From: Nitrospirota bacterium
GTDB taxonomy: Bacteria; Nitrospirota; Thermodesulfovibrionia; Thermodesulfovibrionales; JdFR-88
Direction of reading: 5' to 3'
DNA: 64,000 nucleotides
Assembly (NCBI GenBank): GCA_021840255.1
Contig: JAKBYX010000011.1
Span: 1 to 64,000, forward strand
The notes below the pieces were generated by a model. That model did no database searches and was not told the origin of the DNA. It saw only the letters and a list, made by a program, of their open reading frames with translations. Shown here piece after piece: positions 26,205 to 30,527 of this stretch. Position numbers and translations under genes: made by a program. Positions within the stretch are counted from its first letter, which is position 1. Every line of letters starts with the position of its first letter.

Positions 26205-26277
26205 GGGCCCATAGCTCAGTTGGTAGAGCTACCGGCTCATAACCGGTTGGTCCCAGGTTCGAGTCCTGGTGGGCCCA
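26205..26277 (+). tRNA. tRNA with CAU anticodon (Met elongator or Ile2)
   Basis: Full cloverleaf by eye: acceptor GGGCCCA/TGGGCCC, D-arm GCTC..GAGC, anticodon stem ACCGG/CCGGT with loop CTCATAA (anticodon CAT), T-arm CCAGG-TTCGAGT-CCTGG, discriminator A. No CCA is encoded (TCT follows). G1-C72 pairing rules out initiator tRNA. CAU can be elongator Met or lysidine-modified Ile2; the sequence does not decide, though the CGGCTCATAACCG arm resembles Ile2 in several bacteria. It lies between the rpoD terminator and the zinc-ribbon gene. Confidence 0.93.
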
Positions 26278-27139: not shown

Positions 27140-27574
27140 ATGAGAAAGGCCGTCATTTACTCTGACGGGGCCTCGAGCGGCAATCCGGGGAAGGCTGGCA
27201 TCGGCGGGGTCATAAGCGTGGGGGCGGACACCTTCGAGTTCTCGCGGTCAATAGGCATCGCCACAAACAATGTCGCCGAATATTCAGCGCTTATTGAGGC
27301 GTTAAAAAAAGCGGTCGAGATGGGCGCCACCGAAGCCCAGATATTTCTGGATTCCGAGCTGGTCGTAAGGCAGATAAACGGCCAGTATAAAGTAAAGCAT
27401 GAAAATATAAAGCCCCTTTATGAGAAAGCAAAATCGCTGCTTTCTTCCTTTGAGAAATTCTCCGTGAGGCACATCCCCAGAGAGCAAAACAAGAGGGCTG
27501 ACGCGCTCTCCAAAGAAGGGGTAAACGCCTCATACTGCCCCCCGGGGGGGACCTTTAAACAGGGCCTCTTTTAA
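27140..27574 (+). CDS. RNase HI-type ribonuclease H
   Basis: Degrades RNA in RNA-DNA hybrids. 144 residues with all four catalytic acids in order: YSDGASSGNPGKAG (Asp), NVAEYSAL (Glu), FLDSELVVRQING (Asp) and RADALSKEG (Asp). The form is the compact archaeal/bacterial RNase HI type often linked to DUF164 zinc-ribbon proteins, lacking the basic protrusion handle of E. coli RnhA. The stop codon is at the left boundary of the first 90 bp cobalamin-leader repeat. Confidence 0.92.
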   Translation: MRKAVIYSDGASSGNPGKAGIGGVISVGADTFEFSRSIGIATNNVAEYSALIEALKKAVEMGATEAQIFLDSELVVRQINGQYKVKHENIKPLYEKAKSLLSSFEKFSVRHIPREQNKRADALSKEGVNASYCPPGGTFKQGLF

Positions 27575-27662
27575 AAATGGGCAGCGAGCGCACCCCGAAG
27601 GGCAAGCGAGCGAATATGATAGATCGTGAAATCCTCACATTCGATGCCCGGAGGGCATAAAA
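27573..27662 (+). repeat. 90 bp structured leader repeat, copy 1 (before cobU)
   Basis: Near-identical (five mismatches in 90) to 28873-28962, exactly 1300 bp away. It begins in the rnhA stop and ends on the A of cobU's ATG. Predicted hairpins: CCC-GAA-GGG; P1 CGAATATGA (27611-27619) / TCACATTCG (27635-27643) with one mismatch; P2 ATGCCC-GGA-GGGCAT (27644-27658), directly abutting P1. P2 contains GGAGGG, the Shine-Dalgarno of cobU, seven bases before ATG. GCGAGCG occurs twice in its 5' part. No similarity to the B12 box of cobalamin riboswitches. Confidence 0.9.
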
Positions 27663-28177
27663 TGGGTGAGTTTGTATTTGTCCTAGGCGGCGCAAGAAGC
27701 GGCAAAAGCTCTTTCGCCTTGGGGGAGGCCTCAAAGATCACTGGTAAAAAGGCCTTTGTCGCAACCATGGAACCCGGAGACGATGAGCTCAAAGCCCGAA
27801 TAAGCGCCCACCGCACGGAGAGGGGGCCTGAATGGGAGACCTTCGAGGAACCCCTGCATCTTACCCCCCTGCTGAAGAAGATCGGTAGCCAGTACGATGT
27901 CATCCTCCTGGACTGTCTTACTCTCTGGCTTTCAAACCTGATGCTGCTGAATGAAGACAGACCGCTTAAAGACGAGGCAGGGGAGCTGATAAAGGCGTTA
28001 AAAAAAACCGTTTGCCCCGTCTTTGCCGTTTCAAACGAAGTGGGCATGGGGATAGTGCCCGGCACGGGGCTTGGCAGGGCATTCCGGGATGAGGCAGGAA
28101 GGCTCAACCGCCTTATGGCCGGGGTCGCGGACAGGGTGTATCTGGTAGTGGCCGGCCTGCCCCAGAGGATAAAATGA
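27662..28177 (+). CDS. cobU: Adenosylcobinamide kinase / GTP guanylyltransferase CobU
   Basis: Bifunctional enzyme that phosphorylates adenosylcobinamide and attaches GMP, giving AdoCbi-GDP for nucleotide loop assembly. 171 residues: P-loop GGARSGKSSFA near residue 8, the ISAHRTERG segment with the guanylylated histidine, LLDCLTLWLSN, and VSNEVGMGIVPGTGLGRAFRD. ATG at 27662 is used since GGAGG sits seven bases upstream; the track GTG at 27626 would add MKSSHSMPGGHK, read from the repeat. First gene of the cobalamin run. Confidence 0.93.
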   Translation: MGEFVFVLGGARSGKSSFALGEASKITGKKAFVATMEPGDDELKARISAHRTERGPEWETFEEPLHLTPLLKKIGSQYDVILLDCLTLWLSNLMLLNEDRPLKDEAGELIKALKKTVCPVFAVSNEVGMGIVPGTGLGRAFRDEAGRLNRLMAGVADRVYLVVAGLPQRIK

Positions 28178-28178
28178 A

Positions 28179-28919
28179 ATGACCCCTTTCAGCCTTTTTC
28201 TGATAAGGCACGGACGGACCGGGCTTGAGGGCCGTTACAAGGGGCAGATCGATGTGCCCCTGACGGCCAGGGGTGTAAAAGACATGGAGGCCTCAGCCCT
28301 TGTCCTTAAAAAGATGCTGAAAGGCAAAAAGATAGACGCCATCTACTCGTCCGATCTTACCCGGGCCATCCAGAGCGCTGACGTGATCATGGAGAGGTTG
28401 GATGTAAGGAGGGTGACCCGGATGGAGCTCCTGAGAGAAAGGGCGTTTGGCGAATGGGAGGGGATGCGTTTTGACGAGATAGAAAAAAAATACCCCAGGG
28501 AGTTCGCCAGGTGGGTAAGCGACCCGTTCGTCAACAATCCGGTAGGGGGTGAGACGAGCAGCATGGTCAAACGGCGCGCCCTTCGCGCCCTTAAAGAGAT
28601 AATGGGGCCAGAAAAAAAATTGCCTGGGGGCAGGGTGGCCGCAATAGTATCTCATAATGGCATATTAAGGACGCTGCTTTGCCATTTCCTGGGCATGCCG
28701 TACAGGAACATATTCAGGGTCTCTCTTGATTTCGGCTGCCTGAGCCTTGTGGAGATCTACGAGGACAGGACCCCGGTCGTCAAATTCATGAACTATTCGC
28801 TGATGGATCAAACAAAAACAAAAACAAAAACAAAAATAAAAAACCCAATTGATCATATTTCAGGGGCGAAGCAAAAATGGACAGCGGGCGTAACCCGAAG
28901 GGCAAGCGAGCGAATATGA
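28179..28919 (+). CDS. cobC: Alpha-ribazole phosphatase-like histidine phosphatase
   Basis: Histidine phosphatase superfamily: LIRHGRTGLEGRYKGQ near residue 7, ERAFGEWEGMRFDEI near 88 and SHNGILRTLLCHFLGMPY near 157 give the catalytic His-Arg-His set. In this context it is most likely CobC, removing phosphate from alpha-ribazole-5-phosphate. The family core ends about residue 205; an extra 40-residue tail includes a KTKTKTKIK run from an A-rich (AAAAAC)n tract and a last part (KQKWTAGVTRRASERI) read from copy 2 of the 90 bp repeat, which also supplies the TGA stop. It starts 1 bp after cobU. Confidence 0.85.
   Translation: MTPFSLFLIRHGRTGLEGRYKGQIDVPLTARGVKDMEASALVLKKMLKGKKIDAIYSSDLTRAIQSADVIMERLDVRRVTRMELLRERAFGEWEGMRFDEIEKKYPREFARWVSDPFVNNPVGGETSSMVKRRALRALKEIMGPEKKLPGGRVAAIVSHNGILRTLLCHFLGMPYRNIFRVSLDFGCLSLVEIYEDRTPVVKFMNYSLMDQTKTKTKTKIKNPIDHISGAKQKWTAGVTRRASERI
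28811..28845 (+). repeat. (AAAAAC)n simple repeat inside cobC 3' end
   Basis: Four tandem copies of a six-base AAAAAC unit, then AAAAAT, encode KTKTKTKIK at the C-terminal tail of cobC. Such tracts change length easily; because the unit is six bases, changes would keep frame. Confidence 0.7.
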
Positions 28920-28962
28920 TAGATCGTGAATTCCTCACATTCGATGCCCGGAGGGCATAAAA
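28873..28962 (+). repeat. 90 bp structured leader repeat, copy 2 (before cobQ)
   Basis: Second copy. P1 28911-28919 / 28935-28943 and P2 28944-28949 / 28953-28958 are conserved exactly; the five differences from copy 1 lie in the 5' part and in the P1 loop (A to T). The GGAGG in P2 is ten bases from the cobQ ATG (28965), three bases further than in copy 1. The left part overlaps the end of the cobC ORF and provides its stop codon, as if the element had entered that gene's 3' end. Confidence 0.9.
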
Positions 28963-28964
28963 AG

Positions 28965-30527
28965 ATGACAAAAGGCGCAGCGGCCCGGACATTAAGGTCT
29001 CTCATGGTACTTGGCACTGGTTCCGGCGTCGGGAAAAGCCTTATTGTGACCGGCCTTTTGCGGATATTCTCAGACATGGGATTTGATGCCGCCCCCTTCA
29101 AGGCGCAGAACATGGCGCTGAACTGCTTCATAACGAGAGACGGGGGAGAGATAGGCCGGGCGCAGGCGTTGCAGGCCGAGGCCGCAAGGGTCGAGGCCTC
29201 GACGGACATGAACCCGATTCTCCTTAAGGCAACAGGGGATGCCGGCTGCCAGGTAATAGCGGATGGCCGGTCGATCGGCAACATGACCGCCCGCGAGTAC
29301 TATGCGTACGGGGTCGAAGCCTGGCGGATAGTGACCTCCGCATACCAGAGGCTTGCTGGGAAGCATGAGCTGATCGTAATGGAGGGAGCGGGCAGCCCTT
29401 CCGAGATAAACCTGATGGACAAGGATATCGTGAACATGAGGATGGCAAAGCATGCCGGCGCGCCGGCCCTCCTGGTGGGCGATATAGAAAAAGGAGGCGT
29501 GTTCGCCTCCCTTTACGGGACTTTTTTGCTTCAGGGTGCAGACAGCGGCCTGATACGGGGCTTCATAATCAACAAATTCAGGGGCGACATGGACATACTT
29601 ACCCCCGGCCTCCATATGCTGGCAGAGAAGACCGGGATGCCCTGTCTGGGCGTCCTGCCGTATATGAAGCACTCCCTTTCTGAAGAAGACTCCCTGTCGC
29701 TTTCGGAAGCAAGCCGCGGTTTTTCCCCGGGCGGGAAGGCGTTGAGGATTGTTGTGGTCAGAAACCGCTTCATATCCAACTTCACGGATTTCGAGCCCCT
29801 CGCGCTTGAGCCCGACGTGGAGGTCATATATTCGCTGAGACCAAGGGAGATCGAAGGGGCCGATCTTGTCATCATACCCGGCTCCAAGAACACAAGCAGA
29901 GACCTGCTTTTTCTCCGGCAGTCCGGCGTGGAGGCGTCAATAAAAGAAGCGGTGAAAAAGAGTGTCCCGCTTATAGGGATGTGCGGCGGTTTTCAGATGC
30001 TTGGGCATGCCATAAAGGACCCTTTTGGAGTTGAAAGCGAATTCAAGGAGATAAAAGGCATGGGGCTTCTGGATATCGAGACAGTGCTTGAGGACCCGAA
30101 AGTGACGACTCAAGTTGAAGTCATAGAAGCGGCCCAGGCAGAAGCGGGGCAGGTAAAGGACACAGAGGCGGGCAGGGCTGAAAAAACAAAAAAAGTAAAA
30201 ATCACGGGTTATGAGGTCCATATGGGGCGCTCCACCGGGGACATCGGCCTGTTCAAGCTTAAACGCCTGGCAACCGGGGAGGCCGTTCTGGACGGGTCCA
30301 GAAAAGCGGGTGTCTGGGGCACTTACATTCACGGTCTGTTTGATAACGATGCCTTCCGGGGCAGGCTTCTAAACGGTTTAAGGGCGCGCGCGGGTTTGCC
30401 GGAAAGGGAGAAGCCTGTCAACTATAGCGCAATAAAGGAAGAAGGCATTAATGCCCTGGCGGACGCGATCAGGGACAACCTGGACATGCGCTATATCGAA
30501 AGTCTCATAAAGCGATGCACAGAATAA
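28965..30527 (+). CDS. cobQ: Cobyric acid synthase CobQ/CbiP
   Basis: ATP- and glutamine-dependent amidation of cobyrinic acid a,c-diamide side chains to cobyric acid. 520 residues from the ATG at 28965. N-terminal dethiobiotin-synthetase-like ATPase: GTGSGVGKSLIVTGL near residue 17, KAQNMALNCF, EGAGSPSEINL. C-terminal class I glutaminase: IGMCGGFQMLG (nucleophile Cys, residue about 332) and a GTYIHGLFDND histidine. An acidic/Ala-rich insertion of about 30 residues (VTTQVEVIEAAQAEAGQVKD) lies in the glutaminase domain. It overlaps cbiB by 13 bp. Confidence 0.95.
   Translation: MTKGAAARTLRSLMVLGTGSGVGKSLIVTGLLRIFSDMGFDAAPFKAQNMALNCFITRDGGEIGRAQALQAEAARVEASTDMNPILLKATGDAGCQVIADGRSIGNMTAREYYAYGVEAWRIVTSAYQRLAGKHELIVMEGAGSPSEINLMDKDIVNMRMAKHAGAPALLVGDIEKGGVFASLYGTFLLQGADSGLIRGFIINKFRGDMDILTPGLHMLAEKTGMPCLGVLPYMKHSLSEEDSLSLSEASRGFSPGGKALRIVVVRNRFISNFTDFEPLALEPDVEVIYSLRPREIEGADLVIIPGSKNTSRDLLFLRQSGVEASIKEAVKKSVPLIGMCGGFQMLGHAIKDPFGVESEFKEIKGMGLLDIETVLEDPKVTTQVEVIEAAQAEAGQVKDTEAGRAEKTKKVKITGYEVHMGRSTGDIGLFKLKRLATGEAVLDGSRKAGVWGTYIHGLFDNDAFRGRLLNGLRARAGLPEREKPVNYSAIKEEGINALADAIRDNLDMRYIESLIKRCTE

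Follow-up and report, generated by a model that had tools for sequence, protein, structure and literature searches.

The REP and REPIN sequences mobilised by RAYT/TnpA_REP are short, dispersed, extragenic, hairpin-bearing repeats that occur in many copies, mainly downstream of coding regions (PMC3733652, PMC6006769). The BOX, RUP and SPRITE elements of Streptococcus pneumoniae are modular small interspersed repeats that can provide an upstream gene with its stop codon (PMC3049150). The TAACTGA intergenic direct repeats of Beggiatoaceae are concentrated just 5' of start codons, where a role in translation has been suggested (PMC4679880). Here, we analyzed a 64,000-nucleotide stretch of a Nitrospirota contig (the window), in which two similar leaders precede the cobalamin genes cobU and cobQ. 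Sequence comparisons make it probable that these leaders belong to a family of mobile, non-autonomous DNA repeats that bear hairpins and whose 3' hairpin, P2, has repeatedly been co-opted as a ribosome-binding site.

Like REP/REPIN, the element is a dispersed, extragenic, multi-copy hairpin. Unlike REP/REPIN, it lacks a GTAG/GTGG or CGTC foot and has CATTCG as its 5' foot, is an asymmetric unit of 80–95 nt rather than an inverted REP pair, often brings a Shine-Dalgarno (SD) sequence to the next start codon, and has no linked RAYT at the Y1_Tnp loci examined, with a host genome (G000) that is 76% complete. It resembles the PATE/MITE elements derived from IS200/IS605 in an orientation apparently set by the target; no clear target duplication is seen at C15:58342 and other sites, where A runs could hide 1–5 nt. 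Subterminal hairpins near both ends (H1 and P2) also recall PATE/MITE in the long forms and in the G021 and G027 genomes; H1, which is longer in diverged relatives, is missing from short-form copies, unlike in PATE/MITE, and no autonomous Y1 parent sharing the element ends was found near the Y1_Tnp loci examined. Because the foot and the linked RAYT of REP, and the shared autonomous ends of PATE, are not seen, we assign the element to neither group, although by analogy it behaves like both. The diverged elements of relatives end in NTAA or TCAA, which recall IS608-type cleavage sites. The element is also modular and can supply an upstream stop codon like BOX/RUP/SPRITE, to which it has no visible sequence relation; the portions of PMC3049150 consulted ascribe no SD-donating role to BOX, whereas the present element often carries an SD. 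The TAACTGA repeats are heptamer arrays with rare canonical ribosome-binding sites; the element instead brings its own. A literature search for such a described family, or for repeats that donate ribosome-binding sites, returned analogues only.

Anatomy and spread of the repeat

The two 90-nt window copies are 94% identical (Table 1). The initial annotation had described a 90-bp duplicate with five mismatches ending at the cobU and cobQ starts, and coordinates, identity and Pfam matches bear this out; the proposed P2 hairpin, with the SD GGAGGG inside it, is likewise found in both copies. A second proposed hairpin, P1, fared less well: it can be drawn, but the RNAfold minimum-energy fold omits it in both window copies. 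Across the 43 copies from which we built a covariance model, 97% of P2 cells are paired, with the third pair changed from GC to UA in 7 copies, while 84% of P1 cells are paired and several P1 pairs are broken in 7–16 copies. The initial remark that changes between the copies avoid paired bases holds for the two window copies and is uninformative, because P2 covaries across the 43 copies and the pairing of P1 is much weaker.

Table 1. Features of the cobU/cobQ locus, in window coordinates.
Feature	Position	Strand	Basis or remark
RNase H-like gene	27140..27574	+	Pfam; stop codon adjoins 5' end of copy 1
Element copy 1	27573..27662	+	Alignment, family membership, empty site in G001
Hairpin H1, copy 1 (CCC-GAA-GGG)	27594..27602	+	
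Initially proposed P1 region, copy 1 (CGAATATGA/TCACATTCG)	27611..27643	+	Conserved CGAAT...CATTCG, pairing weakly supported
3' hairpin P2, copy 1 (ATGCCC-GGA-GGGCAT)	27644..27658	+	Compensatory changes
Shine-Dalgarno GGAGGG within P2 before cobU	27650..27655	+	Computed anti-SD duplex
cobU, start ATG 27662-27664	27662..28177	+	Pfam CobU
Histidine phosphatase (cobC-like)	28179..28919	+	Pfam
Element copy 2	28873..28962	+	Missing at syntenic position in G001, G007, G005, G006
Hairpin H1, copy 2	28894..28902	+	
P1 region, copy 2	28911..28943	+	
3' hairpin P2, copy 2	28944..28958	+	Compensatory changes
Shine-Dalgarno GGAGGG within P2 before cobQ	28950..28955	+	
cobQ, start ATG 28965-28967	28965..30527	+	Pfam CbiA/GATase_3

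The phosphatase ORF enters copy 2 by 47 nt (28873-28919), so that the protein takes both its stop codon and a new tail at its C-terminus from the element. Upstream of the locus, a tRNA gene (Rfam RF00005, 73.6 bits) lies on the + strand at 26205-26277, flanked by a sigma-factor-like ORF on one side and the gene of a zinc-ribbon protein on the other.

The unit measures ~80–95 nt and consists of a 5' AATGGATAGCGAGCG, an optional H1, AAGCGAGCGAAT, ~20 variable nucleotides, TCCTTACATTCG, P2 and a 3' AA. The 3' end reads CCTTACATTCG-hairpin-AA, and the consensus is AAAATGGATAGCGAGCG-(nAnCCCnnAGGGC)-AAGCGAGCGAATATGATAAAT...TCCTTACATTCG-ATGCCC-GNA-GGGCAT-AAAA, with H1 in parentheses. Across relatives, the arms of P2 keep their partners as the stem changes (ATGCCC/GGGCAT, ATTCCC/GGGAAT, AGGCCC/GGGTCT, CTTTCC/GGGAAG, and likewise ATCCCC). 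The loop is mainly GNA and most often GGA or GAA. Copies in G021 and G027 follow the same plan with longer, different hairpins (TTAAATGGATAGCGAGCGTATT-CCCCGCAG-CTTG-CTGCGGGG-TTAGCGAGCGAATATAA...TTCCTTGCATT-AAGATTCCCTGCAG-CTTG-CTGCAGGGAATCTT-CAAT), and in diverged relatives both hairpins have stems of 8–14 bp and other sequence.

The host genome (2.2 Mb, 29 contigs) contains 48 BLAST matches to the 90-mer and ~70 covariance-model matches (72 at E<=0.1, 69 at E<=0.01). Three congeners have 39–55 model matches each, and three genomes from a second genus of the family have 12–46. Within an order-level sample, 8 of 41 genomes, G000 and G001 included, gave matches, many of them in G021 (16) and G027 (47); diverged forms extend to further families within this Nitrospirota class. 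The 16-mer AAATGGATAGCGAGCG was found in 13 of 246 genomes of the phylum, every one in the class of the window. When named genomes were scanned for the pattern, a single record matched, Nitrospirae MAG isolate DBS2-1.bin129, which is identical to G001 at the matching place.

Some copies are arranged in tandem arrays of 74–93 bp units that have the A run at their junction in common (G003:C9:9368-9628, G003:C86:165-393, G001:C25:1-224 and G000:C6:35517-35805). Short-form copies at L023, L030, L032 and L039 (~1460-1620) are apparently nested in a larger dispersed repeat (GGGAGGTTG.AATTTTCAGTCTGAACGGAAAACA ... AAAAGGGGACT).

Insertion sites and their empty counterparts

Comparison with relatives reveals the element as a discrete insertion. 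In the congener G001, the syntenic RNase H-cobU-phosphatase-cobQ block is present at ~80% identity and is element-free before both cobU and cobQ; G007, G005 and G006, which include other genera, likewise lack the element at the cob site. At cobU, the empty G001 sequence CTGTTTTAAATTAAAAATGGGTGAG corresponds to the filled CTCTTTTAAAAATGGGCAG...GGGCATAAAATGGGTGAG, which places the minimal insert of copy 1 at ~27576-27660 (AATGGG...CATAA), with edges ambiguous within A runs. Clean empty sites were also found in congeners for C17:173824 (GAGGGTAAAAATGAAGG), C10:105511 (CTAAAATAAAATGAGCC), C15:58342 (GGGACTGAGATGAGC), C4:75700 and C26:26077; wherever one of these five sites could be located in a congener, it was empty. 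The gain is ~85 nt (AATGG...CATAA) in A-rich sequence, often between a stop and a start codon and mostly in the sense direction; at C15:58342, it falls exactly between TGA and GATG (TGA|AATGGGC...CATAA|GATG). In total, the insertions bring ~4 additional A, consistent with a unit AATGG...CATAA and no target duplication, although the A runs leave room for other edges and for a duplication of 1–5 nt. The 5' flank is A-rich in G000 and TTAA in G021/G027.

The element thus inserts as a whole unit into A-rich sites, with a preference for the rear of stop codons and for the sense direction. With genes called by a simple codon-based caller of our own (window coding fraction 0.86), none of 116 scored copies lies inside a gene. 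Between co-directional genes of G000, 30 copies are sense and 5 antisense (p=2e-5), and relatives show a bias in the same direction (25:11, p=0.03); tandem copies somewhat inflate orientation and abutment counts, and removing array partners by hand gives ~26:5 in G000. The element 5' end adjoins gene 3' ends rather than the 5' ends of divergent genes in 18:0 cases in G000 and 13:0 in relatives. Some copies are antisense, convergent or divergent relative to their neighbors, and many have no close downstream gene.

Two further observations concern the flanks. A-rich (AAAAAC)n-like tandem tracts lie near some copies (window 28808-28842, L020:1608-1634, L011/L045) and are possibly slippage products or target-like sequence. 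The region around G000:C9:70798 is 99–100% identical to G002:C322:13029-13369, element included, between species that are otherwise ~80% identical, which makes a recent transfer (or assembly carry-over) likely.

Copies at translation starts

We defined a copy as start-abutting if a coding ORF starts <=11 nt after P2, and called starts without an SD bonus, which would be circular. In G000, 10 of 13 start-abutting copies carry a GGA (or GGG) loop versus 7 of 39 others (p=2e-4); in relatives, such a loop occurs in 4 of 8 start-abutting copies versus 4 of 56 others (p=0.006). To control for relatedness, we masked the loop and set each abutting copy against the five non-abutting copies closest to it: GGA was present in 70% of the former and 11% of the latter. 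The observed count was 14 against an expectation of 4.2, and not one relabeling out of 20,000 reached 14. Seven GGA copies in G000 adjoin no called start, and one of them, C17:173824, adjoins a small sub-threshold ORF. Given this strong enrichment before starts, P2 has probably been retained or adapted repeatedly to serve the gene behind it as a ribosome-binding site.

The computed anti-SD pairing energy changes from the empty to the filled site from +1.5 to -10.0 kcal/mol at cobU, from +0.7 to -10.0 at an aminomutase-like gene and from -3.3 to -10.0 at clpP; two other start-abutting sites go from -6.3 to -9.8 and from -11.8 to -10.0 kcal/mol. Insertion therefore created an SD in some cases and replaced one in others. 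The genes behind copies match CobU, CobQ, glycosyltransferase, PDH E1, M50 peptidase, RuvA, radical SAM, ClpP and phosphoglucomutase in Pfam, and no corrinoid theme is evident among these annotated genes. Before cobU and cobQ, the element is most likely a plain donor of ribosome-binding sites that acts without a ligand, and its P2 hairpin may tune initiation strength. A dispersed selfish repeat donating ribosome sites had been the alternative offered by the initial annotation; the many copies, the clean empty sites and the concentration of GGA/SD loops at starts all favor it. The same element with and without a loop SD, beside known empty counterparts, amounts to a countable natural experiment in how mobile repeats rewire bacterial translation.

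Alternative readings and mobilization

According to the main initial proposal, the leaders switch translation of cobU and cobQ through P2, perhaps in response to a corrinoid or another ligand. Two copies before two cobalamin genes, each with its SD held in P2, invite that idea, which we now consider most improbable: other copies precede clpP, ruvA, PDH E1, phosphoglucomutase, M50 peptidase, glycosyltransferase and radical SAM genes or have no close gene, some copies are antisense, convergent or divergent to their neighbors, and the cobU/cobQ operon is element-free in G001 and other family members. Folding of the two leaders is no better than that of shuffled sequences (z -0.5 and -1.1), and an Rfam scan of the window matched only the tRNA, with no cobalamin riboswitch model or other family at the element. 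Only 2 of ~70 copies are known to precede corrinoid genes; the covariance-model search proposed at the outset found many copies, most of which, where examined, are not 5' of corrinoid genes, and the distribution largely refutes a corrinoid switch. The initial annotation had counted many copies at random or antisense sites, and stems without covariation, against its proposal; copies are indeed many and some are not in the sense orientation, but the sites are non-random and P2 does covary. The case also cautions against assuming that a repeated structured leader is a riboswitch when the genes behind it are related in function. It is about as improbable that the repeat is a 27-codon mini-cistron (MGSERTPKGKRANMIDREILTFDARRA*) whose stop, beside the start codon, couples upstream and downstream genes. 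Both window copies keep this frame open up to a final TAAAATG, but they differ at four residues, and for the family the reading is refuted by a frame open to the 3' end in just ~14 of 48 copies and by length changes that are not multiples of three.

A regulatory RNA network spread by mobility, in which P2 binds a protein or acts as an RNA thermometer and so controls translation of the 10–14 abutted genes, is unlikely, though less so than a ligand switch. Half of the SD is enclosed in a hairpin of 6 bp with a computed energy of -5 to -7 kcal/mol, P2 is maintained through compensatory changes and GGA loops are associated with starts. Against this, P2 also covaries in antisense copies and in copies far from starts, so the hairpin is maintained for the benefit of the element itself, and the downstream genes have no common theme. 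The half-sequestered SD leaves a little room for regulation. There is a correspondingly small chance that this class-wide Nitrospirota hairpin family provides distributed control, with P2 both supplying and gating the SD of a dozen housekeeping genes, in which case these genes could be adjusted jointly by temperature or a single trans-acting factor. A further reading is an ancient, vertically inherited leader lost in relatives rather than gained in the host lineage. A few copies are common to G000, G001 and G003 at the same place (C4:137930), but no congener in which a clean site was located has the element there, and cobU/cobQ are element-free in other genera, which makes this reading rather less likely still than a network.

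For the mobile repeat that we favor, the best analogy is with IS200/IS605 ends, REPINs and PATEs, and we infer that the substrate for its movement is a single-stranded hairpin; the short-form copies without H1 imply that a two-hairpin substrate is dispensable for some copies. The target would be a TAA-like sequence, and this alone would explain both the orientation bias and the position at stop codons. A copy that lands right before a start codon cuts the gene off from its former leader and places GGAGGG, formed by the P2 loop and 3' arm, at SD spacing. Selection on the downstream gene would then keep GGA loops, or favor changes to GGA, at start-abutting sites. A search for Y1_Tnp in G000 and G003, both incomplete genomes, gave no match, and the Y1_Tnp genes examined in several relatives are accompanied by different inverted repeats, and the element ends are absent there. 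The class-wide family is a concrete target for finding the mobilizing enzyme. The relatives' RAYT-like Y1_Tnp genes at L103:2669-3428, L105:1531-2295, L106:115-864 and L107:847-1581 are flanked by inverted repeats of 21–26 nt (e.g., AAAATAGAACCGTCCCC, GGTATCTGTCCC and GGGGACAGACACC), which form a separate REP-like family.
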